Assembly (NCBI GenBank): GCA_043809745.1 | Contig: JBDROU010000039.1 | Location: 1 to 43,725 of the forward strand | Direction: 5' to 3' | From: JBDROU01 sp043809745 [NCBI: bacterium] | GTDB taxonomy: Bacteria > Elusimicrobiota > JBDRMW01 | Length of the DNA stretch: 43,725 nt | Shown: positions 19,376-43,725 of the stretch, in pieces | How positions within the stretch are numbered: position 1 is the stretch's first letter | How the letters are laid out: the number at the start of each line of letters is the position of its first letter | The notes under the pieces: model-generated | What the model was told of the DNA's origin: nothing | The model's database searches: none | Seen by the model: the letters and a program-made list of their open reading frames with translations, nothing else | Translations under genes and position numbers: made by a program

Positions 19376-22300
19376 TTATAATGCAACTTTAAATTCTTTT
19401 GGGGTTTTATTTAGAGCATCATCCAAATCAACTGGCATTGTATTATTACCACTTCCATTTGAATTCATATTTAGCAATACTAAAACTGATTTTATTAGTA
19501 CCTGATCGTAATCAGGCAATTCTAACCCACCCAATGTCTTATGAACTGTATTAAAAATTGGAAACAGCAATTGAGGAGTAAAACTACCCGTTCTCAACAT
19601 GTCTGAAATAATTACATCCGGAGTATATGCATAATTTCGCATAATATTTTTGAAATTGTCTTCATCTATTTCGAAAGGTAGTGATTGGTTCAGTGCTTCA
19701 TACACTATTGCAACAGTCTTTCTCTTAATGGGCTTCTCAATTTCTTGCGCCTCCAGCCTCTCGATAATTTCCTGTCTGATTATGTATTTAAAAGTTTCAG
19801 GATTTAAATTCGGAAAATATTCCTTAAAATTTTGCCTGGGGTAATTTGTTGCATCTTCAAGGATATAAAGTTGCGTTTTTGCAATAATCTCACCGAGCTC
19901 TACGTTTATTGCAGCTGCTGCTATATATCCTGATATTTCACCCGCCGAAGTTGAATTATATTTTATAAAAACATTATTTAATAACTCCAGAAGTATAGTC
20001 GGTTCATCATAATTCCGCTCTTCCCCGCTGGCAAGTTTGACAGTATCCGGGGTTATGACTTCTGACCGATTGTCAGCTTGTCTAACTAATTTTATGTTGA
20101 TGCTGGAGGCATCTCCTCCTCTGGAAGGTGTCCTACTGCCCCATGGATTAGGTGAAACATTAATACCGATTTGTTTAAGATCTTTGTCTTTACTTCCTTT
20201 TAAGTCACCAAATTTTATCTTATAAGTATTTCCCATCTTAAGTGGTTTAGAAAACATATTTGGACTGTCAAAAGATTGATTTTCTCCCACCAGACGTAAT
20301 ATATATTCGCCGCTCCCCTCAACGGTTACTTCAAAATAGTCATTATCGCTAAGATCTTTCCACTTTCCATCCTTAAAAAATGCCACCCCTCCCCAGTTCT
20401 GCGGGCATCTGCCTGTACAAATATTTGTACTTACAACTGTCGGAGCAGGTTTAGGTTTTTGAACTTTGGAGGAATCTTTAATTTTTCTAGAGATTAATTC
20501 TTCCATAGCCGCCGCGCGGATTTCTATATCCATCTTTGTATTTCTAATAGTCCCTTCCAATGCTTCTTCAGTAACGCTTTTCATTAATGTTTGATGTCCA
20601 GTCCATATTTGACCCTTAGCTTTTCTAGAAAACAATTCTGCCATAGCTGCCGCGCGAATTTCTATATCCATCTTTTTATTGCTAATAGTATTTTCCAATG
20701 TATCTTCACTTACACTTTTCATTAGCGCTTGATGCTCCGGCTTAATAATGCTTTTTAGTTGGGTTGAGCTTTGGGCTATGGGTTTTTCATCTGGTGATTT
20801 TTCTATCAATGAATCGATTAATCCCTTATCAACTTTTTCTGATTTGGGTTCAGCTGATGTTTTTTCCGCCAATTTGTCGATTAATCTTTTATCGACTTTT
20901 TCTGTTGCTGGCTTTTCATCTTTATTTAGAAAGATACCTTTTAACCTACTCAGAAAACCACCTTGCGCATTATCCCCAGATACTGAGGAGGTGCCCTTTA
21001 CACTTTCCGGAATTGAAAAACTGCTGGGATGCTTTATAAAGTAATAATCTTTCAAGAAAACATTTGCTCCCCTTGGGTTATTAGTAGTAGCCATTCCGAC
21101 ATCAAAAGAAATAGCCCTAATTTTAGAAATATCAGCTCCGGATTCATCCAGATTAACTGTTACAGTATGCCATTCTCCATCAGAATGAATTTCTGCCATT
21201 ACAAATGGCGGAGGTATCTTCCAGTTTTTAGCCTGAATATAAGAATCATCAACAACGTTAATTCTAACCGCCTTAGCACCTTTTTCTCCTCTTACTTTAA
21301 GAGTTAAAAAGGGTGTTTTTGATAAATCCTGCATTTTTTGAAAACTTACTTCAGCGCTGTTCCAGCTAGTAATGGTTTGAATGCCAATTTCATCTTTTGA
21401 AGCTTTTATCATCCCCTTGTTTTTTCCAATAGCGGAGTAAAAGTTCACCTCTTTTAATATACGAGGATCTCCAAGATGAATACTTCTATCATCTTTTTTA
21501 ACGGTTGTTAGCCATCGTTCAAGTGCTACTTTAGTGATTTTTGAGCCCGGCATGGTGAGAGATTTATTAGAAAATGTGTTTTCATCTTTCATTGTTACTA
21601 AAAGCAACTCAATTCCTTTCCGAATTCCGAGACGATTAATTCCGGGTAAGTTTCTTAAAGAATGTCCTTCAGGATCAAACGGATTCCCTCTGTGATCCAA
21701 AGCAAACAGCATCCAGGTCCCCGCGGTGCTTCCACCCGGAGCATTTGGAGTATTCCACCCGTATCCAACAGCCATTCCACGCTCAGTGGCATATTCCCAA
21801 TAAAGCATCCCATCACGTTCTGTGGCTCTTATAAATGCAAAATACCTTAATGCATCAGCCATTGCTAATAAATTTTCAGCTTTTTTAACAAGACCAATTT
21901 CATAATAATAGCCTGCCATGACATCCATTGCGCAAATGACGCCTGCTGTCCATTCATCAGTTATTTGTCCTTTAATCCCGCCGCGTTGAGCTTGGATATC
22001 GCTTAGATGCGGATCACTAAAATCAGAGCCAATTGTTGTGACTTCGTAGCCATCCGGCCGGATATAATCAGTTAATACCAAAGCATTCCTTAACAGCCAA
22101 TTCATCATCCCTTCCGCTGTGCCCTCCCCAAATATTTCATTCAATTTTTTTGGGCCAACACTGGAGATAGCTTTGGCGTTTGTCATTGTAGTAGAAGATA
22201 GAATCCCCCAACTTTGTACGTCTACAGGGATTTGCGGATTTATTTTTCCATACGCAAAGCCCTGATAAAAAAAGGCTTCATCCCCTTCCTTTACTAAAGC

Positions 22301-24247
22301 GCCTCTTTTTTTCAGTTCCGGATAAATACTGTCAGCTTTTTTTCTGCATCTTGAAGCTAATCTAGGATTAAGATGATTTTCTTCCAAATAATTCGCTAAT
22401 TGATGCAAGAAAGAATAATGATCATGCATATTTTCAATATGCCCTAAATGCTCCCTTGCGGGTGCGCCATCTATGTCCTGCAAGGCAGGACCCGCAGACA
22501 CGATATTTTCAGTGCTGAAAAGACCAAGAATCGTTTCCCCGAGTTCTTGCACAAATTGTTCCAATATTTTTCTTTCCTGCCTTGAAAGATCTGAATCCTT
22601 CCTTAAAGATTGAAGTGCGGCTCCCAACAGAAAACTTTGCGGTCCGCCATCTGTATACCATTCAATAATTCCGTTTCCTTCTGTCCAAGAAGAACTTGTG
22701 TCGATGCAGTTAATAATATGCTTCCTTTTTACTCCATCAAACGGGCTTGGAAGAAGCCTTATAAATCCATAAACATTATTTTCATCCACTTTCCCAGATA
22801 ATTCCTCTGCAGAATATTTAATAAAACGCTCGGCAAAATATAAAACGTACTTTCTTGCTTTTGCATAATCTTTAGTCAGTATCAAATGCCGCAACGCCGC
22901 GAGCGCTTCGTCATAAGTAAATCCCCCTGTCGCGAAACCATTTTTAACCGCAACTGGACTTTGGTCTCCAACATGACTTGGCTGAAGACCCGTGTTTGTG
23001 TCTGAGATAGAATCTTCCCATTCGGAAAATTCTTTGTGTAATTTTCGAGCTGGAGGTAATATTTTTGGAATTGTTTTCGTTGGCAAGCTTGCAAAAGCAG
23101 GAGCTGGGAAATTACCCATACTGGTTAAATTAAAATCACTATTTTGAGCATTGCCTGCACTAATTGACACATATCCTTGAATCAGCGGAACTGAAATTAA
23201 TATAAATATCGGCGCAAGTAAATAAAAATATATAAATATTCCTGCTCCGAACGCAGCTATAAAAGCAACTTTCTTAACCCGTGACAAATTGGGATAAAAA
23301 TTCATCATACCTTCTAATACATTTCTTAAAGACCCTGGGGTTTGAGAAGTCTGTGTACTGGGAAATTTTAATTCATAGGTTTCTATATATGAATTTCCAT
23401 CTGTGTCGGCCTCATAATATTTAATCAATAAACTTTTACTGGGTATACTTTCATCAAAACGAAACCAATTGATTAATGTGTTTTCTTCTTCTAATATTTT
23501 CTCTAATTTTTCTTTTTCTTCTGGCTCATCTGGCATTAAAAACCATTTTATCACTTGTTTTAAGGCGACATTAATGGGTTTTGTTAATTTGCGTCTCTCA
23601 TTTAAGGCATTCACGTATTTTATTAATGTCTGTGAAAAATCGCCTTTGTCAAAAACACCCTCTTCATCAAACAGGGCTGATATTAAATCTTTATATACCA
23701 GCCTCTGTTCTGTTGAATCAGGATCAATTTCAGATAAGTTGTCTATTATCAAAGTTAAAGCTGTTTCTTTCAAGACGACAATATTTAAAAACAAATTCTT
23801 GTAATAATCTGCTATCTCTTCTAGCCCATCTTTTTTTGCTGATATGTATTTATTTATAATGTCGCCATAGAATAATTTATGGTCATTTTCAGTATTTGAT
23901 ACTTTTTCTAAAGATTGCTTAAAAAGACTTTGCGTTATGACACTAACCACTGATACTAAAGGTGTCAAATTCTCTTTTTCTTGCTCTCGAAGTAGAACAT
24001 CAAAATCTGTAAGAATTCTAAAAAGCTTGCTTATATCAAGTTCTGCCAAAGAGATAGAATCAACAACCCCTTTTTCCAATAAAGGAGATACCACTATTTC
24101 TCTAGTTGCGTTGAAAGCATCAGTTATCTTATTTAGTTCAGTTCTAACGGGTGGAGCTAAATAAGCACTTCCATGACACAATGAGGAATAATTAAATTGT
24201 AAGCTCAAAAAACTTATTAACAAAATGCAAACAAATATTTTTTTCAT
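19376..24247 (-). CDS. Giant exported protein with (alpha/alpha)6-glycosidase-like core and beta-rich binding modules
   Basis: 1,623 residues from ATG 24247, which follows AAGGGGAA by about 7 nt; the frame also extends 20 codons upstream. A signal peptide (1-25) leads to the motif AYLAPPVRTEL. Helical region to about 300, then a hydrophobic hairpin or membrane segment (325-360). Residues about 440-900 look like an (alpha/alpha)6 toroid (TYDEALAALRHLILTKDYAKARKYV, VDVQSWGILSS, DEWTAGVICAMDVMAGYYYEIG), the fold of GH8/GH94-like enzymes; catalytic residues cannot be assigned. Residues about 945-1075 resemble a carbohydrate-binding beta-sandwich. Then come repeated EKVDKxLIDxLxEK linkers, two 46-residue repeats (1171-1262), a second beta module (about 1270-1390) and a helical C-terminus. 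It is probably cell-envelope located and acts on glycans; the substrate is unknown. Confidence 0.75.
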   Translation of the reverse strand: MKKIFVCILLISFLSLQFNYSSLCHGSAYLAPPVRTELNKITDAFNATREIVVSPLLEKGVVDSISLAELDISKLFRILTDFDVLLREQEKENLTPLVSVVSVITQSLFKQSLEKVSNTENDHKLFYGDIINKYISAKKDGLEEIADYYKNLFLNIVVLKETALTLIIDNLSEIDPDSTEQRLVYKDLISALFDEEGVFDKGDFSQTLIKYVNALNERRKLTKPINVALKQVIKWFLMPDEPEEKEKLEKILEEENTLINWFRFDESIPSKSLLIKYYEADTDGNSYIETYELKFPSTQTSQTPGSLRNVLEGMMNFYPNLSRVKKVAFIAAFGAGIFIYFYLLAPIFILISVPLIQGYVSISAGNAQNSDFNLTSMGNFPAPAFASLPTKTIPKILPPARKLHKEFSEWEDSISDTNTGLQPSHVGDQSPVAVKNGFATGGFTYDEALAALRHLILTKDYAKARKYVLYFAERFIKYSAEELSGKVDENNVYGFIRLLPSPFDGVKRKHIINCIDTSSSWTEGNGIIEWYTDGGPQSFLLGAALQSLRKDSDLSRQERKILEQFVQELGETILGLFSTENIVSAGPALQDIDGAPAREHLGHIENMHDHYSFLHQLANYLEENHLNPRLASRCRKKADSIYPELKKRGALVKEGDEAFFYQGFAYGKINPQIPVDVQSWGILSSTTMTNAKAISSVGPKKLNEIFGEGTAEGMMNWLLRNALVLTDYIRPDGYEVTTIGSDFSDPHLSDIQAQRGGIKGQITDEWTAGVICAMDVMAGYYYEIGLVKKAENLLAMADALRYFAFIRATERDGMLYWEYATERGMAVGYGWNTPNAPGGSTAGTWMLFALDHRGNPFDPEGHSLRNLPGINRLGIRKGIELLLVTMKDENTFSNKSLTMPGSKITKVALERWLTTVKKDDRSIHLGDPRILKEVNFYSAIGKNKGMIKASKDEIGIQTITSWNSAEVSFQKMQDLSKTPFLTLKVRGEKGAKAVRINVVDDSYIQAKNWKIPPPFVMAEIHSDGEWHTVTVNLDESGADISKIRAISFDVGMATTNNPRGANVFLKDYYFIKHPSSFSIPESVKGTSSVSGDNAQGGFLSRLKGIFLNKDEKPATEKVDKRLIDKLAEKTSAEPKSEKVDKGLIDSLIEKSPDEKPIAQSSTQLKSIIKPEHQALMKSVSEDTLENTISNKKMDIEIRAAAMAELFSRKAKGQIWTGHQTLMKSVTEEALEGTIRNTKMDIEIRAAAMEELISRKIKDSSKVQKPKPAPTVVSTNICTGRCPQNWGGVAFFKDGKWKDLSDNDYFEVTVEGSGEYILRLVGENQSFDSPNMFSKPLKMGNTYKIKFGDLKGSKDKDLKQIGINVSPNPWGSRTPSRGGDASSINIKLVRQADNRSEVITPDTVKLASGEERNYDEPTILLELLNNVFIKYNSTSAGEISGYIAAAAINVELGEIIAKTQLYILEDATNYPRQNFKEYFPNLNPETFKYIIRQEIIERLEAQEIEKPIKRKTVAIVYEALNQSLPFEIDEDNFKNIMRNYAYTPDVIISDMLRTGSFTPQLLFPIFNTVHKTLGGLELPDYDQVLIKSVLVLLNMNSNGSGNNTMPVDLDDALNKTPKEFKVAL
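20483..20758 (-). repeat. Tandem 138-bp duplication inside the giant gene
   Basis: Two head-to-tail copies of 138 bp (46 codons), starting at 20483 and 20621. Each encodes a helical unit around HQxLMKSV...MDIEIRAAAMxELxSRK. DNA identity is high over the core, so the duplication looks fairly recent. It keeps the reading frame and lies in the linker between the two beta modules. Confidence 0.85.
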
Positions 24248-24309
24248 TACTGTTCCCCTTAATTTTAAGAAATTTATTAACACATCTAGCTTTTCTTTTG
24301 CTTTCACAT

Positions 24310-24329: not shown

Positions 24330-24358
24330 ACTATAATGCTATTTTCTATTTTATCAAA
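24330..24358 (-). promoter_or_regulatory. Sigma-70-like promoter candidate for the giant gene
   Basis: TTTGAT (24358-24353), 17-nt spacer, TATAGT (24335-24330). It would give a leader of about 75 nt. It is an alternative or addition to the box-driven promoter immediately upstream. Confidence 0.4.
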
Positions 24359-24390
24359 AGCATATTAAGAAGTTGTAAAAGTCTTGTAAA
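24359..24390 (-). promoter_or_regulatory. PhoB/PhoP-like box promoter for the giant gene
   Basis: On the minus strand TTTACA (24390-24385), 5 nt, TTTACA (24379-24374), 9 nt, TATGCT (24364-24359). The 11-bp period and the 9-nt distance to a -10-like hexamer are the same as upstream of the receiver gene and of the PorV-like gene in this window. Confidence 0.5.
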
Positions 24391-24405
24391 ATTTTTTATT
24401 CCAAA

Positions 24406-24537: not shown

Positions 24538-26103
24538 TCAATGGCTGATTGCTAATGGCTTTGATCTAGAAGATAAAGGACGATTTTGAATTTTTATATT
24601 CTCTCTTTCCCATTTTTCAGAGCATTCTTTATATTTATAAAAACCTGGTTTCATTGAAAAGTCCGGCCTGACCAAACCGAAATTATCCACTCCATTACCG
24701 AAGTTATTTACTGTATCCTGAAAGAAAGCCCAGAAGATTTTATCTACTCCTTCAATGTCTAAACCTTTAATAAAAATCTGTTCTACCCATCGAGCCTGCT
24801 GATCTTCTGTTGTGCTTATTCCGTGCCACCACGTGTTTTTAAATGAGATTTCACTAACACCGGGGCTTCCCAACTCGGTCAGCCAAATCCTCTTGCTCCC
24901 GTCGCCGTACTCAGACATTATTAGTCTCACTGAAGCTATCTTTTCATTCAGCTCTTGCATCGGATTATTATTAAGAGGGTTTACAAAAGGGTGTACGTTA
25001 ACGATATCGAAAAACTGCCCGCCAACAAGAGAATATACCGCCCTTAAAGGTTTTCCACTTGCTTCCGTAAGCCCTCCAAGAAGCACTTTACAACTTGGAT
25101 CTGCTGCTTTAGCTGCGGTATAACTTTTTTTCAATAGACCGGAATACCGTTTCATTCCGTCCTGCCCCTTCCAGTGTATGGCCGAATCAGGTTCGTTCCA
25201 TACCTCCCAATATTTTACGCTGTGTTTATATCTAGATACCACTTTAGTTACAAAATCCGCGAAATCTTCGTTATTATAAGGTGGACTGTCCCAGGTATCT
25301 CCGCCCCATGAACTGGAATAGGACAGAAATCCCAGAATTCGAATGTTGTTTCTTTTAAGTAATTTAATTATAAGGTCATATCTATTAAATGTGAATGTGT
25401 CGTTTTTAGCCTCGATATCTTCCCACAAAAATCCTAAACGCACTGAATTTACTCCTAACTCTTTTAGCATGGCCACCGCCTGTATCAGTTTTTGGTCACT
25501 ATACATATAGTTATTCCATTGATGATTCCAATTAAGGAACACCAGCATACCGAACGGACTATAACCCTTCTCTCTCCAATCGTATGGGCTGGGATCGAAC
25601 TGATTATCAACTCCGTCTCCGTCAATATCCTGGTCCACTTGATTGGGAATGCCGTCATTATCCATATCTTCATCATCCTTCCCGGGAATTCCATCATTAT
25701 CCTGATCCAGAAGCATGACCGCTTTATTTTCATTTACTGATGGTAACAAGTGATTATTCTTTTTCTGCCATTCGTACGAGTTTTTTGAATAATCGAACCC
25801 TGGAAGTTTATTTTCTGCAGCCACAATAAATAGCGGCATAACAATAAATAAGGTAATAGCAGCAATAAACAATACAAAGCTGGAGATCCTTGTCCCATAG
25901 AAAAAACCCGGCAACTCTGGCATATCGTTTGAATCTGACACATTTATTGTTTCATTAATTGGCAGCTCTTCTGTAAATATCATATTCTCTGAAATTTCAT
26001 TAATTCCGGAAGGTGCAAGCAGATATAAATCATTAACAAACACTTCGGATACAGCAAACGCTGTAATCAATAAAAATAGATTAAAAGTTTTAATAATTTT
26101 CAT
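24538..26103 (-). CDS. Exported or membrane-anchored clan GH-A glycoside hydrolase with calcium-binding repeats
   Basis: 521 residues from ATG 26103. A signal-like N-terminus (MKIIKTFNLFLLITAFAVSEVF) is followed by LYLLAPSGINEI, akin to the YLAPP motif of the neighbouring giant protein. A membrane segment spans about 74-97. Residues 132-171 are thrombospondin-type-3-like DxDxDGxxD repeats, expected to bind Ca2+. Residues about 182-500 form a TIM-barrel hydrolase: LGVNSVRLGFLWEDIE, acid/base candidate Glu304 in YWEVWNEPD, VHPFVN, and nucleophile candidate Glu410 in IWLTELGSPG. The pattern fits clan GH-A, closest by eye to GH39/GH5-type retaining enzymes. The substrate is unknown. It is upstream of the giant gene and separated by a regulatory region, so the two are likely coordinated rather than in one transcript. 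Confidence 0.82.
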   Translation of the reverse strand: MKIIKTFNLFLLITAFAVSEVFVNDLYLLAPSGINEISENMIFTEELPINETINVSDSNDMPELPGFFYGTRISSFVLFIAAITLFIVMPLFIVAAENKLPGFDYSKNSYEWQKKNNHLLPSVNENKAVMLLDQDNDGIPGKDDEDMDNDGIPNQVDQDIDGDGVDNQFDPSPYDWREKGYSPFGMLVFLNWNHQWNNYMYSDQKLIQAVAMLKELGVNSVRLGFLWEDIEAKNDTFTFNRYDLIIKLLKRNNIRILGFLSYSSSWGGDTWDSPPYNNEDFADFVTKVVSRYKHSVKYWEVWNEPDSAIHWKGQDGMKRYSGLLKKSYTAAKAADPSCKVLLGGLTEASGKPLRAVYSLVGGQFFDIVNVHPFVNPLNNNPMQELNEKIASVRLIMSEYGDGSKRIWLTELGSPGVSEISFKNTWWHGISTTEDQQARWVEQIFIKGLDIEGVDKIFWAFFQDTVNNFGNGVDNFGLVRPDFSMKPGFYKYKECSEKWERENIKIQNRPLSSRSKPLAISH

Positions 26104-35354: not shown

Positions 35355-35473
35355 ATTATTGTTCTCTTTTACAATCATTGAATTAACAGAATCTTATACT
35401 GCTTGCTTAATTAATTTGGATTATTGATTTAGGCTTTCCATTAAAACCAAAAACTATTTGCAAAAAGAATAAA

Positions 35474-35547
<74 letters not shown>

Positions 35548-35718
35548 AAACATAGCATTAAAACCGGAATAAAATTCAGTTATTTTTCTTACCTTAAAAC
35601 AAATCGTAAAACAGCCGTTTTATTACGAATATAAAACGCATTAAAGTAATACGGAATTATATCAAAAGGACTACTAGATGTGCAACAAATTAATTTTTTA
35701 CTATGACATTATTAAGAT

Positions 35719-36153
35719 CTAATAATAACTTCTCATAACAGCCCTCATGCGGGCTTCTAATTCTCTTATGGAGAATGGTTTTAATATGTAATCGTCTGCA
35801 CCACATTCCAATCCCTTGATTTTATCATTTGTTCGCGTATTTGCTGTAAGTATTATTAGAGGGATCGATTTGGTATATGAATCTTCTTTAAATTTACGGC
35901 ATAATTTATAACCGTCAATACTTTTCAGATTGACATCCATAACAATTACATCGGGATTAGTCACCTTCGCACAACGAAGCGCTTCGTATCCATCATTACA
36001 GACATCAACATTATAGTCGATTTGATTGTATATATCCTGGAAATAATCCTGAAACTGAGGATCCTCATCAACTAGCAAGACCTTTTTTTGCCTTGCAAAA
36101 GCTCGCGTAAAACTTCTTTTAGTCTCTCCGTATACAGCGCTTTCTTTTCCCAT
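35719..36153 (-). CDS. Stand-alone response-regulator receiver protein
   Basis: 144 residues. A 22-residue basic N-terminal extension is followed by one receiver domain with the full set: acidic pocket Glu30/Asp31, phosphoacceptor Asp73 in IVMDVNL, switch Thr103 in ILTAN, and Lys125 in ILKPFS. There is no DNA-binding or other output domain, so it would act by protein contact or as a phosphorelay step. Shine-Dalgarno AAGGATGG precedes ATG 36153. It has its own promoter with four 11-bp-phased TTTACA boxes, and lies downstream of the multi-PAS kinase gene, its likely partner. Confidence 0.9.
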   Translation of the reverse strand: MGKESAVYGETKRSFTRAFARQKKVLLVDEDPQFQDYFQDIYNQIDYNVDVCNDGYEALRCAKVTNPDVIVMDVNLKSIDGYKLCRKFKEDSYTKSIPLIILTANTRTNDKIKGLECGADDYILKPFSIRELEARMRAVMRSYY

Positions 36154-36201: not shown

Positions 36202-36255
36202 ATTGTACTGCAAGTATGTAAAGGAATTGTAAAGGAGTTGTAAAGTAATTGTAAA
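36202..36255 (-). promoter_or_regulatory. Four-copy PhoB/PhoP-like box promoter of the receiver gene
   Basis: On the minus strand TTTACA occurs at 36255-36250, 36244-36239, 36233-36228 and 36222-36217, exactly 11 bp apart, then 9 nt and TACAAT (36207-36202). There is no canonical -35; the box array occupies that place, as in PhoB-type activated promoters where direct repeats with 11-bp period replace the -35. The same layout recurs at 43445-43498 and 24359-24390. Confidence 0.75.
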
Positions 36256-36333: not shown

Positions 36334-39300
36334 TTATTTCTTAAAAATAATTGTATACTTTGTGCCGCCGAATCTATCCAGCTTCATCTCGCCTTTTAAT
36401 TGTTTTATCAATACATCTACTAAACGCATACCCAGCGATTTCGTGTTTTGGAAGCTAATACTTTCCGGCAAACCAACACCATTGTCTTGAATAATAAACT
36501 CAAATGAATCAGTTCTTATTTTATGCAGTTCTACCCGTATTTCTCCCTTGCTTTTAGAAGGAAATGCATATTTAAGAGAATTAGAAATAATTTCATTTAC
36601 AATAAGTCCACAAGGGATAACTGTATCAATATCAAATAATACATCTTCAATATCGATCCTTACATCAATCATCTCCCTATCAATCCCGTAAGCTGATAGC
36701 AGCTCATCTGCTAAATCTTTGACATAATCCTTAAAACTTATTTCTGCCAGATTATTTGAATTATACAGCTTTTCATGAACAAACGATATTGACTTTATTC
36801 GATTCTGGCATTCCTTAAAAACATCACTTACAAGCTTATCTTTTATACGGAATGCTTGAAGATGAAGTATGCTGGAAATTACCTGCAGGTTATTCTTTAC
36901 CCTGTGATGTACTTCCTTAATTAAAACCTCTTTTTCCGCCAAAGATTTTTGCAGCATCTCCTCAGTCTTTTTTCTCGCAGTAATATCCGTTTGAACCGAT
37001 ATATACGAATAGATTTCACCGTATGCATTCCTGAGCGGCGAGATCTTGAATTCACAAAGAAAAACACTTCCATCCTTTCTTTTATTGCAGTGCGACCCGA
37101 ACCATATCCCGCCAGAACTTACAGTTTCATATATATTTCTCTCAATTTCCTCCGCAATCGGCTCCGCATTAAGTATGGACGGATTTTTAAATCTGAGTTC
37201 ATCTAATGTATACCCATATAACTTTTCCGCGGCTTCATTAATGAAACTTATTTGTAAATTTTTATCAGTTACAATTACAGCATCTGAAACCTGTTTGCAC
37301 ACTGAACTTAAAAATTGAGATTCTTCCTCGGCAAGTTTCCGTTTTGTGATATCCATTACAACTGCTGTTGATCCAATATAATTACTCCGATTATCTATTA
37401 TCGGAGCTGCACCTATCTGCGTTAGTATTCTTGCGCCGTCCTTCCTCAAGAATTCAAACTCATATCGTTCCTTTAAACCCTGCTTTCTGTTGGCCAGGTG
37501 TTTCTCCATGAAATTTACTTTACGTTCATTTATAAATGAAAAAATATGCCTTCCTATCATCTCATTTATTGAATATCCGAGCATCTCCGCCATCTTTTGA
37601 TTGACAAAAACGGTATGATAGTTTTTGTCAGTCACCCAAATTCCTTCATCAAGGTTTTCAACAAGCCTGCGGTATTTTTTCTCACTTTCTATTAATGCTA
37701 CTGCCGCCATTTTGCGCTCTGTAATATCCTGAATAGTACAAATCATTCCGTTAAAACTTCCCTTTTTAATCTCTGGAATTATCCATCCGGAAAGATAAGT
37801 TACTTTATTTTCGTCTTCTATAGGCAATGATTCAAAATAAACAGCTTTCTGCATCTCCTTTGCTTTTGAATAAATAGCATGGAAATTTTTTAATAAACCG
37901 TCTGACGAATCTCTCAGAATCTTAACACCAATGCATACATCCTTTTCTACTCCAAATAGCTTCGCCGCACCGCTGTTTGCAAAAACAACTGTATCAGTAT
38001 CATCGGTCACCCAGATTCCATCATTAACACCCTCTAAAACACTCCCATAGAATTCCTTAACTCCACGAATTTTATCTTCTATTTTCTTGCGATCGGTAAT
38101 ATCGGTAATGGTAATTAGCACTTTAGAAAAGCTATCCTCATAACTCGGCGCGACCAACATACGCATATTTATATAGATTTTATTGCCTTCTAAATCCATA
38201 TTAACTGTATCGCCTTCAAAGGATGTCTTACCTTCTGCGATAGCTACAAGCATCTCCTTTAATGTACCGTAAGATTCCTCAGCGAACACCTTGTTCAAAT
38301 CATTAATAAAATTATCCTTATTTTGGGCTTTATACATTTTCACAGTAGTCATATTAACATCAACTATTTTCGCCAAACGAGCGCATTCAACAGCTTCTTG
38401 CGGATTTTCGTTAAAATGCTTTAGAAAATCTTTTATCCCCATCATTTTTAGAGCTTCCAGATGCATTTTAACTTTAGACAAATCCTCTTCCCAAATAGAA
38501 ATTGGTGAATTCTCAAAAATACTTCTGTATCGCTCTTCACTTTCTCTTAAGGCAAGCTCAATTTTTTTTTGCTCGCCAATATCCTTGAACACAGCTATAA
38601 TCTCACCGGTTGGAAGTTTATAGACATAGTTCTCCCTCCAAACTTCTATTCGATTATCCTTATATAATGTTATCGGATGATGCTCCGGAACCCCTGTAGC
38701 CCATACCCTGCGAATAACATCAAGGAGACCGAATTTTTCTATTTCCGGATAAACAGATACTAAACTTTTTCCTAATATCTCTTCCTTTTTTATCTTTTCC
38801 ATCGCTTCTGCTTTGCTGTTAAAATTTCTAAAAACAAAATCATTTCCGCTATCAATTGCCTCATAAACTGCGACTCCGTCATTCATATTTTTAAACAACT
38901 CTCTATACCTTACTTCACTTTCTTTAAGAGCTTCCTGCATCAATCTGTTTTCTGTTATATCACGAGCAAGCACAAAAGCGTAATCCTTGCCTCTGTATTC
39001 AAAATAATTATATGTCATCTGAGCGGGAAATATCTTCTCGTCCTTTGATCTAAGACAACCCTCTAAAGTATAAGAACGCCTGATTTTAAGTTCATTCCAA
39101 TGGTCATTCCAAATTTCCTCCGGCAGATTAGGATCGATATCATATATCTTTAATGATAAAAAATCATCGCGCGAATAGCCTAATATCTTCGTGGCAGCCT
39201 CATTTGAATACAGGATTTTGGATTTAGAATCCAACCAAAATATTGGATCGTTTGCATGATCTATTGAAAACTGCGTGAATGTAAGATTTGTTTCAGTATG

Positions 39301-39762
39301 AAATTTATCTGTAATGTCCTGTCCCAGGCTGAGCACTCCGATTATTTCGCCGTTTCTGTTTTTTAATAACGAATTATGCCACCCTATTATCCTCTCCTTA
39401 CCGCTGCTTGTTATTACCGGCCCTTCTATATAATCCGTGTTTTTTTCTTTTCTGTGGATTAAAACATCAAAAGCAACTTTTAGTTTATCCTTCTGGATTG
39501 AAGGAATAAAACTGGAAAACCAATCTTTTCCTATAATCTCGCTTTCATTGAATCCCAGAACCTCACAACTTCTTTCATTCACAAGGATTACCCTGTACTT
39601 ATCATCAATAATTACAACCAGGACATTCCCCATCTCAAGCAAACGAGAATCAATTACAGACTCGTTCATCTGTTTGCTTTGCTTGCTGCTATTAGTTGAA
39701 GGATTGGTTTTCTTACTGTTGCGAGAAAGCATTGTTTCTTGTTTCAACTTTGCTTTTTTCAT
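36334..39762 (-). CDS. Cytoplasmic multi-PAS sensor histidine kinase (HisKA_2 type)
   Basis: 1,142 residues with no membrane segment. Seven PAS-like domains follow each other from about residue 38 to 930, most ending in the PAC-type motif D-I-T-(D/E/A)-(R/K) (QDITDKF, RDITENR, KDIGEQKK, TDITDRKK, QDITERK, MDITKRK, TDITARKK). The fourth is the most divergent. The transmitter is of the HisKA_2 class: phospho-His in EVHHRVKNNLQVIS (His953), N-box VNEIISNSLKYAF (Asn1056), and DNGVGLP plus GMRLV in the ATPase domain. It senses intracellular cues; ligands are unknown. Upstream is mscS, downstream the receiver gene. Confidence 0.93.
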   Translation of the reverse strand: MKKAKLKQETMLSRNSKKTNPSTNSSKQSKQMNESVIDSRLLEMGNVLVVIIDDKYRVILVNERSCEVLGFNESEIIGKDWFSSFIPSIQKDKLKVAFDVLIHRKEKNTDYIEGPVITSSGKERIIGWHNSLLKNRNGEIIGVLSLGQDITDKFHTETNLTFTQFSIDHANDPIFWLDSKSKILYSNEAATKILGYSRDDFLSLKIYDIDPNLPEEIWNDHWNELKIRRSYTLEGCLRSKDEKIFPAQMTYNYFEYRGKDYAFVLARDITENRLMQEALKESEVRYRELFKNMNDGVAVYEAIDSGNDFVFRNFNSKAEAMEKIKKEEILGKSLVSVYPEIEKFGLLDVIRRVWATGVPEHHPITLYKDNRIEVWRENYVYKLPTGEIIAVFKDIGEQKKIELALRESEERYRSIFENSPISIWEEDLSKVKMHLEALKMMGIKDFLKHFNENPQEAVECARLAKIVDVNMTTVKMYKAQNKDNFINDLNKVFAEESYGTLKEMLVAIAEGKTSFEGDTVNMDLEGNKIYINMRMLVAPSYEDSFSKVLITITDITDRKKIEDKIRGVKEFYGSVLEGVNDGIWVTDDTDTVVFANSGAAKLFGVEKDVCIGVKILRDSSDGLLKNFHAIYSKAKEMQKAVYFESLPIEDENKVTYLSGWIIPEIKKGSFNGMICTIQDITERKMAAVALIESEKKYRRLVENLDEGIWVTDKNYHTVFVNQKMAEMLGYSINEMIGRHIFSFINERKVNFMEKHLANRKQGLKERYEFEFLRKDGARILTQIGAAPIIDNRSNYIGSTAVVMDITKRKLAEEESQFLSSVCKQVSDAVIVTDKNLQISFINEAAEKLYGYTLDELRFKNPSILNAEPIAEEIERNIYETVSSGGIWFGSHCNKRKDGSVFLCEFKISPLRNAYGEIYSYISVQTDITARKKTEEMLQKSLAEKEVLIKEVHHRVKNNLQVISSILHLQAFRIKDKLVSDVFKECQNRIKSISFVHEKLYNSNNLAEISFKDYVKDLADELLSAYGIDREMIDVRIDIEDVLFDIDTVIPCGLIVNEIISNSLKYAFPSKSKGEIRVELHKIRTDSFEFIIQDNGVGLPESISFQNTKSLGMRLVDVLIKQLKGEMKLDRFGGTKYTIIFKK

Positions 39763-41714: not shown

Positions 41715-43265
41715 CTAATAATCCGCAAGTGATTTTGTAGAAAAGTTGGGTTCGCATGTAAGTCGAACCCCAAGCTTTTTTAAACCCGCTTCATCTCCGG
41801 GTGTCGGCATATGAGTCAGGTGCACTTCGCAATCCTTCAATTTCCCTAACTGTTCAATAGCGGATTGCGCCACCGGATTGGTCGTTGCGCTGATACTCAT
41901 CGCTATCAGTGTTTCTTCAAGATCAAGACTTATTGTCTTAGAATTAAGAATATTTCTCTTGAGGAGCCCTATTGATTCTATTATATTCGGCGATAGCAGA
42001 TGAATCGCATCAGGGATTCCAGCCAGATATTTTATGGCATTTATAATCAGGCTCGATGACGCGTGTAAAAGAATTGAATTTTTACCTTCTATGATTGTAC
42101 CATCCTTTAATTCGATTGAAGCACCGCAATAAATACCTTCGTTGCCTTTCTTTTCAGCCGCGCATTTGTGGGCAGCCCGTCTGGCTGGCTCTACAATTCT
42201 TAAATCCTCCGGTTTACAGTTAACCTCCCCCATAATAAATAATGAACGGTCAACGGTTTCCTTATCTTCAAAACCCATAACATATTCACAGCTGTACCTG
42301 AAATATCTGCGTATAATCTCTTTTTTAGCCGCTTCCCTGACAATTTCATCATTAACTATTCCAAATCCGGCTCGGTTAACGCCCATATCTGTAGGCGATT
42401 TATAAAAAGATTCTAAATTTGTAATTTTCTCAAGTATTTTTTTCAGAACGGGGAAGATTTCCACATCGCGATTGTAATTTATGGCAGTTTTGCCATATTC
42501 TTCAAGATGAAACGGGTCAATCATATTAAAATCCCTGATATCAGCTGTTGCGGATTCATATGCAATATTCACAGGATGCTTTAATGGGATGTTCCAAATA
42601 GGGAATGTTTCAAATTTAGCATAACCGGCTTCTTTCCCCTTTCTAAAATCATGATACAGTTGAGACAAACAGGTTGCCAGCTTCCCGCTGCCCGGACCCG
42701 GGCCTATGACAACCACCAGAGGCTTCTGGGTTTCAATATACTCGTTTGCGCCGTATCCCTTATCACTGACTATCAGATCCACATCGGTAGGATATCCTTT
42801 AGTTGAACGATGCGTACAAACATGAATATTCCTTCGCTCAAGCTTATTCTTAAATATCCTGGCTGAAGGTTGATTATCATAACGCGTGATTACAACTGAA
42901 TGAACATCCAGACCCCAGTGACGTAAATCATCTATCAGCTTCAAAGCATCCACGTCATACGTAATTCCAAAATCTGCTCGAATTTTTTTTCGCTCTATAT
43001 CACCTGCATATATACAAATAATGATTTGCGCTATATCACTGAGTTTTTGAAGCAGTCTCATCTTAACATTTGGATCAAAGCCCGGCAATACTCGCGCAGC
43101 ATGATAATCAAACATCAACTTCCCCCCAAATTCAAGGTAGAGCTTGTTTTTAAATAATTCAACCCTTTCTTGAATAGCTGCGGTTTGTTCTTTAAGATAC
43201 TTCTCGCTATCAAAACCAACAGAAGTATTAACAGTTTTTTCTTCCTTATTGATTGTTTCAGGCAT
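41715..43265 (-). CDS. DUF1846 (UPF0371) family protein
   Basis: 516 residues. Recognised by the N-terminal [59 protein letters not shown], the glycine-rich [24 protein letters not shown] and [16 protein letters not shown] blocks. The glycine-rich loop resembles a nucleotide-binding P-loop. Family structures are known but a biochemical role is not established to my knowledge. AAGGAGAT precedes ATG 43265. Upstream on the minus strand is TATAAT at 43340-43335 with only a weak -35. It is divergent from the PorV-like gene. Confidence 0.88.
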
Positions 43266-43515
43266 GTAATCTCCTTTGCAATTATCGGCTTTAGCCAGCT
43301 AATCCACTTCTAGTTAGTTGTTTATTTGTTAAGGATTATATCATAAAAATATAATTTGCAACAGAACTTTGGGTTATTAATTTAAACCACCGGCTGTACT
43401 TCTAACCAAAATATCGCTTCAAAGATAAAGTTTTAAACGCAATCTTTACAAGAATTTTACACATTCATAACATAAATTTTACATATCCTGCTTATCCTTA
43501 TTATAGGAGCAAGAT
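43266..43515. other. Divergent intergenic region DUF1846 / PorV-like gene
   Basis: 250 nt with no gene. It holds a TATAAT for the minus-strand DUF1846 gene (43340-43335; a TTGCAA lies 15 nt upstream, short spacing) and a four-box promoter for the plus-strand gene (43445-43498). GGCTAAAGCC (43288-43297) is a small hairpin in the DUF1846 leader. Confidence 0.5.
43445..43498 (+). promoter_or_regulatory. Four-box PhoB/PhoP-like promoter of the PorV-like gene
   Basis: TTTACA (43445-43450), TTTACA (43456-43461), ATAACA (43467-43472) and TTTACA (43478-43483), all at an exact 11-bp period, then 9 nt and TATCCT (43493-43498). The number of boxes, spacing and distance to the -10-like hexamer match the receiver-gene promoter. 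AGGAG follows at 43505-43509, before ATG 43516. Confidence 0.7.
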
Positions 43516-43725
43516 ATGAGGAATATTTATATATCCTGTATTGCTTTTCTTATATTAGCCATAACCTTTACATCCGCCTTTTGTGAAAGCGGCGGAACTA
43601 AATCTGCTGAATTCTTGAAAATAGGCATCGGTGCAAGAGCCGTAGCTATGGGTGAAGCCTTCACTGCCGTATCCAGCGATGCCGATTGCATGGCATGGAA
43701 TCCTGCCGGACTGGCAACTCTTAAA
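43516..43725 (+). CDS. PorV/PorQ-like outer-membrane protein, 5' part
   Basis: 70 codons, open at the window edge. A signal peptide (MRNIYISCIAFLILAITFTSAFC) is followed by KSAEFLKIGIGARAVAMGEAFTAVSSDADCMAWNPAGLA, the hallmark N-terminus of the PorV/PorQ (UPF0164, FadL-like beta-barrel) family, which forms outer-membrane barrels and in some phyla takes part in type IX secretion. AGGAG lies 6 nt before ATG 43516. The full protein is not in view, so its exact subfamily is open. Confidence 0.85.
   Translation, partial: MRNIYISCIAFLILAITFTSAFCESGGTKSAEFLKIGIGARAVAMGEAFTAVSSDADCMAWNPAGLATLK

Follow-up and report, generated by a model that had tools for sequence, protein, structure and literature searches.

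Four TTTACA boxes in 11-bp register as a candidate Pho-type operator before a stand-alone receiver gene of an Elusimicrobiota genome

The unit recognized by PhoP of Bacillus subtilis is of the TTAACA type. More generally, Pho boxes are built of direct repeat units of 11 nt, and confirmed boxes are also known from genes without obvious phosphate regulation, as stated in the accessible part of PMC4415409. The box of the cyanobacterial regulator SphR consists of at least three repeats of the 8-bp unit CTTAACCT with a 3-bp linker, and the Pho repeats of Escherichia coli lie 10 bp upstream of the -10 hexamer (both from the available sections of PMC1906773). A described system of another kind is Osp of Rhodobacter sphaeroides, a single-domain receiver whose gene a response regulator activates and which is able to inhibit the kinase of the system it belongs to (PMC9430884, as far as its available text goes).

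Here, we analysed a promoter region in a 43,725-nt stretch of Elusimicrobiota DNA (the window, to which all positions refer unless a relative is named). The features at this locus are as follows.

36217..36255, minus strand: proposed Pho-type operator of four perfect TTTACA boxes with a period of 11 (from sequence and weight matrix)
36202..36207, minus strand: TACAAT, a -10-like hexamer 9 nt past the last box (the same N9 occurs in pst-linked ladders of relatives)
35719..36153, minus strand: stand-alone receiver gene, 144 aa, no output domain (Pfam Response_reg)
36334..39762, minus strand: histidine kinase gene with several PAS, HisKA_2 and HATPase_c domains, 180 nt upstream of the receiver gene and on the same strand

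Read 5' to 3' on the minus strand, the TTTACA boxes occupy positions 36255-36250, 36244-36239, 36233-36228 and 36222-36217, and are separated by the five-base spacers ATTAC, ACTCC and ATTCC, in this order. The last box is followed by the nine bases TACTTGCAG and by TACAAT at 36207-36202, and the receiver ATG at 36153 lies 48 nt downstream of this -10-like hexamer, so that the whole array falls inside the gap which separates this ATG from the kinase stop (36334). The first-pass annotation had described the same four hexamers 11 bp apart, the 9 nt and TACAAT on the minus strand, and its coordinates agree exactly with ours. As in the PhoB, SphR and PhoP boxes, the repeats are tandem and direct, have an 11-bp period and stand just upstream of a -10 sequence, an arrangement in which no -35 is needed. 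Unlike those boxes, the array consists of four perfect TTTACA units with N9 to the -10, its gene is receiver-only and not a known Pho gene, and its binding protein is a predicted one. A simple promoter scan found no -35-like hexamer 16-18 nt before TACAAT at 36207, which fits the earlier proposal that the boxes stand in for the -35.

Taken together with its complement, TTTACA is the sole hexamer in the entire window with four copies at a constant period between 7 and 15. It occurs 44 times on both strands, and its mutual distances of up to 60 bp are 11, 22, 33 and 43 on the plus strand and 11 (four times), 22 (twice), 33 and 60 on the minus strand. Ladders of this kind were scored by their fit to four TTWACA boxes of period 11 followed by N9 and TATAAT, with a maximum of 30. 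The receiver array reached 29/30, as compared to a maximum of 23 in 100 first-order Markov resamplings of the window; the real window scored with periods of 9, 10, 12 and 13 likewise gave a maximum of 23.

Relatives were collected by an rplT search, which found 124, of which 80 were kept, none of them close; the set includes the Elusimicrobia MAG G001 (L001). The first relative search, with PheT as the query, had found nothing. The ThrS encoded in the window shares 53% identity with its G001 counterpart and 46-61% with those of 15 of the 16 chosen genomes of G001's phylum; for six genomes from other named groups in which the match was long, the values are 45-54%.

Ladders of the same layout were found in the pst clusters of distant relatives. 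PF12849, the family used for pstS-type genes, is present in 85 of the 94 genomes of the class of G129. From 115 matches to this family 84 upstream regions were scored, three of them short (311-517 nt); the second match of G137, those of G049 and G129 and the second of G085 were covered as parts of longer stretches, and 27 matches fall outside the count, mainly from genomes of at most 1.3 Mb, fragments and two more of G085. The controls were 1372 single-strand chunks of 1500 nt from sampled stretches of G076, G137, G085, G129 and G049. A ladder score of at least 24 was reached by 8 of the 84 pstS-type upstreams vs 3 of the 1372 control chunks. Among the eight ladders, those of G076, G230, G085 and G137 stand directly before the pstS-type gene, that of G045 lies 267 nt before it, that of G074 precedes a gene of 321 aa without a Pfam match, itself followed by the pstS-type gene, and those of G248 and G249 precede a Porin_5 gene which in turn precedes the pstS-type gene. 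G049 and G032 also carry ladders directly before a pstS-type gene. The pstS of G076 is preceded by TTAACA-N5-TTAACA-N5-TTTATA-N5-TTAACA-N9-TATAAT, and this ladder opens a series of PBP_like_2, two BPD_transp_1, two ABC_tran and PhoU genes, i.e., the pst-phoU order. In G129 the cluster runs from a regulator with receiver and Trans_reg_C domains through a HisKA kinase, a ladder, a sigma-70-like gene, another ladder and small genes to Porin_5 and PstS-like genes. One of the three control matches, in G129 (L238:3439-9457), stands before a Porin_5 gene with two PHO4 phosphate-transporter genes behind it, and because of these genes it is probably a Pho promoter as well. Porin_5, the porin family of these Pho clusters, is also the family of the gene preceded by a TTTACA ladder (27/30) in G260.

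The array of the window thus shares with the Pho-cluster ladders of relatives the four boxes, the 11-bp period, the N9 and the -10. Unlike it, those ladders are mostly of the TTAACA type, often with TTTATA as box three, and this difference from the TTTACA of all four boxes in the window counts against a Pho reading, as does the lack of a ladder of at least 24 in 76 of the 84 pstS-type upstreams. In G047 the pstS upstream is without a ladder of at least 24, and the TTTACA ladder of this genome precedes a different, secreted-looking protein. G221 has a TTTACA ladder (26/30; L135:1501-1617) with atpC on one side and a stand-alone receiver gene on the other; we gave it no weight as support, since its receiver and that of the window share 26% identity and chance is plausible.

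Two kinds of small genes were noticed in the pst clusters of relatives. Small sigma-factor-like genes (L242:6211-6708 and L191:2791-3030) each stand behind a Pho-like ladder, and their products have Sigma70_r2 and r4 in one case and r4 in the other; a Pho-driven sigma-like protein would be unusual. Proteins of 63-71 aa are encoded in the clusters of two genomes (L242:6807-7016, L242:7066-7281 and L212 near 16560), and in each of the two clusters a ladder precedes the first of them.

A 54-column weight matrix was made from ten pst-linked sites outside the window, two near-identical ones being used at half weight. Its best match in the window, on either strand, is the receiver promoter with 30.6 bits. 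The matrix peaked at 25.3 bits (mean 7.2) in 200 Markov resamplings of the window and at 18.9 bits in a further 300, so that 0 of 500 reached 30.6, and 200 column-permuted matrices peaked at 22.4 bits. Training sites that were left out scored 22.8 to 53.1 bits, which puts the receiver site in their lower range. The second-best match, with 21.2 bits, is the region of a PorV-like gene (see below), one repeat upstream of the register of the ladder present there. Spacers ending in C make up 22 of the 30 training spacers and all three spacers of the receiver array. The sequence therefore matches the Pho-cluster box of relatives, though with TTTACA instead of TTAACA. On these sequence comparisons, we consider the array a likely Pho-type operator, recognized by a predicted activator of the PhoB/PhoP class. 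An OmpR/PhoB-type activator, possibly phosphate-responsive, had already been suggested in the first-pass annotation, and the suggestion is strengthened by the presence of the same ladder before pstS and Pho-cluster genes elsewhere and by the first rank which a pst-trained matrix gives to this promoter.

The earlier annotation had taken a chance frequency of the motif as evidence against its reading, and a proxy for this comparison spoke against it, as perfect triples of TTWACA boxes were no commoner in 340 genomes of the phylum (10) than in the reversed control (9); perfect triples of TTTACA boxes numbered 4 in 294 genomes vs 2 in the control. The two-box pattern TTTACA-N5-TTTACA-N(7-22)-TANAAT gave 32 matches in 29 of the 340 genomes, vs 4 in the reversed control, and in 17 of these matches the gap is 20-22. 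Judged from the protein starts, 9 of the 32 matches precede an organophosphate-antiporter-like gene and 3 a Na/Pi symporter gene. Pfam (four of the nine) and NCBIfam (three of the nine) assign the antiporter-like proteins analysed to the major-facilitator family, the models for GlpT, PgtP and UhpC matching these proteins far below their cut-offs, and one of the three symporter proteins, analysed with both collections, is Na_Pi_cotrans and exceeds the cut-offs of two Na/Pi models. These transporter matches are not independent, because they concern related genes in related genomes.

The window contains two weaker ladders.

43445..43498, plus strand: second ladder (27/30), TTTACA, TTTACA, ATAACA, TTTACA, N9, TATCCT, followed by a PorV-like gene with its start at 43516
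24348..24401, minus strand: third and weakest ladder (24/30), a poor first box, TTTACA, TTTACA, TTAATA, N9, TAAAAT

The gene behind the ladder at 24401 encodes a 1643-aa product that appears to carry a signal peptide. When the matrix is set to the same register as the ladders, it gives 13.5 bits to the PorV site and 10.3 bits to the 24401 site, values within reach of resampled windows, and thus both sites are weak as Pho boxes; the 21.2 bits of the PorV region exceed all of the second 300 resamplings. PorV-like genes were matched in 54 of 94 genomes, and a ladder of at least 24 was found before none of them at the 30 loci read, in what is a large family of unproven orthology, so that the PorV site of the window is not backed by conservation. 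Neither of the two genes has an evident phosphate role, and a density of three ladders per 43.7 kb would be high for a Pho regulon, which counts against the Pho reading. As to the proteins themselves, the 1643-aa product (19376-24307) has an HGSAYLAPP motif and no Pfam or NCBIfam match, and a similar motif, YLLAPS, lies near the start of its neighbour, which resembles glycosidases (24538-26103).

The same site could serve another OmpR-family regulator (WalR-, CpxR- or KdpE-like) governing envelope and secreted proteins. Direct repeats with a period of about 11 bp are a general trait of this family, the sites of WalR or CpxR are direct repeats of the TGTAAA or GTAAA type, and on the opposite strand the unit of the array reads TGTAAA-N5. 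The genes behind the ladders of the window, which encode the receiver, the secreted-looking 1643-aa protein and the PorV-like outer-membrane protein, would suit such a regulon, and TTTACA ladders of relatives (L103 and L169) also precede secreted-looking proteins. However, a matrix derived from pst sites only puts the receiver site first, clear of the resampled windows, and the array has in common with the pst ladders both the preference for spacers ending in C and the identical N9 to the -10. We regard an operator of this kind as unlikely, though it deserves serious consideration.

Slippage might also have left a neutral 11-bp minisatellite without function. Tandem Repeats Finder reports 3.5 copies of an 11-bp unit with 89% matches, and perfect triples are at the control level in relatives, both of which would agree with such an origin; the hexamers are, however, invariant while the spacers vary, the -10-like hexamer stands in exact register, the array lies just before a gene, and the same layout recurs before pstS elsewhere, and we find this explanation very improbable. 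Hardly any weight can be given to an ordinary sigma-70 promoter that uses one TTTACA as its -35. TTTACA equals TTGACA at 5 of 6 positions and the simple scan does find TTTACA-18-TACAAT inside the array, but the scan returns 6 sites vs a mean of 5.2 in shuffles, and four copies in register would be left without explanation.

The product of the gene behind the array has the traits of a single-domain response regulator, i.e., a receiver alone with the phosphorylation site kept. Pfam finds Response_reg at residues 25-136 (E 4e-27) and the output domain is absent; D73 and K125 are invariant in an alignment of nine sequences, and the acidic pair and T103 are present. The best NCBIfam model is that of PhoB (receiver part), below the cut-off. 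We dropped this match as proof of PhoB identity, since the model (TIGR02154) tops all seven OmpR-class regulators tested and descent from PhoB is thus not proved by it. In comparison with solved structures the best-scoring sequences were PleD and then the PhoP receiver 1mvo, that of B. subtilis, which places the protein in the general OmpR/PhoB-like range. It keeps the motif GADDYILKPFSIRELEAR, typical of OmpR/PhoB-type regulators, in a region which is the pairing surface of these regulators.

The matches listed from 149 genomes of the phylum include no clear receiver orthologue, the ten best by score having 36-42% identity and partial matches reaching 52% in a stretch of 91 residues; at ten match loci that were read, nine proteins are longer and one (L088) is receiver-only. 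Among the matches listed, the receiver is not nearest to pst-linked regulators: it scores 104 bits to one of G049 and at most 88 bits to the five listed regulators that have a pstS-type gene no more than about 5 kb away, and it is 33% identical to the G129 regulator. Hence, the binding protein is deduced from the site and not from its gene. Inspection of the window ORFs by eye revealed no regulator with a DNA-binding domain, in line with the earlier remark that the regulator is not encoded there. No terminator-like site was found between the kinase and receiver genes, so that read-through combined with a regulated internal promoter is possible.

Under the Pho-type reading, a winged-helix activator of the PhoB/PhoP class, phosphorylated under phosphate limitation, would bind the boxes head to tail and recruit sigma-70 polymerase in place of a -35, and since it would act when phosphate is limiting, we propose that a shortage of phosphate leads to production of the receiver-only protein. 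The promoter is well-formed and of a known kind and the mechanism is ordinary; the unusual part is the target, a receiver-only gene instead of the phosphate-acquisition gene that usually, though not strictly, follows a Pho box. More tentatively, the receiver may take or block phosphoryl flow from a sensor kinase, which could be the neighbouring PAS/HisKA_2 kinase or else that of the Pho system. The outcome would be feedback or cross-talk, for which Osp and CckA are a reported example. The likeness to Osp lies in the single-domain receiver and in the switching by a response regulator, observed for Osp and proposed for our gene; the difference is that Osp belongs to the CtrA/CckA system and that feedback was demonstrated there and is proposed here (Osp after the available text of PMC9430884). 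A decoy function can also be imagined, as the receiver keeps the PhoB-type surface GADDYILKPFSIRELEAR and is without the DNA-binding half, so that, driven by the Pho promoter, it could form pairs with the full-length regulator or compete with it and in this way weaken the Pho response; we consider this doubtful.

A full-text literature search, with most subscription journals outside its coverage, showed no Pho regulon in Elusimicrobiota by title and the start of the abstract. The present analysis gives a sequence-based Pho box for this little-studied lineage. It also suggests that a receiver-only protein may be among the Pho targets, in which case phosphate status and another sensor kinase would be linked.

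Two further observations concern the surroundings of the locus. A DUF1846 gene at 41715-43265 has counterparts in 4 of 97 relatives of G001, the main matches being 67-69% identical, and with this patchy distribution it was perhaps transferred. On the other side, a tRNA-Val (GAC) at 35473-35548 sits between the receiver gene and thrS.
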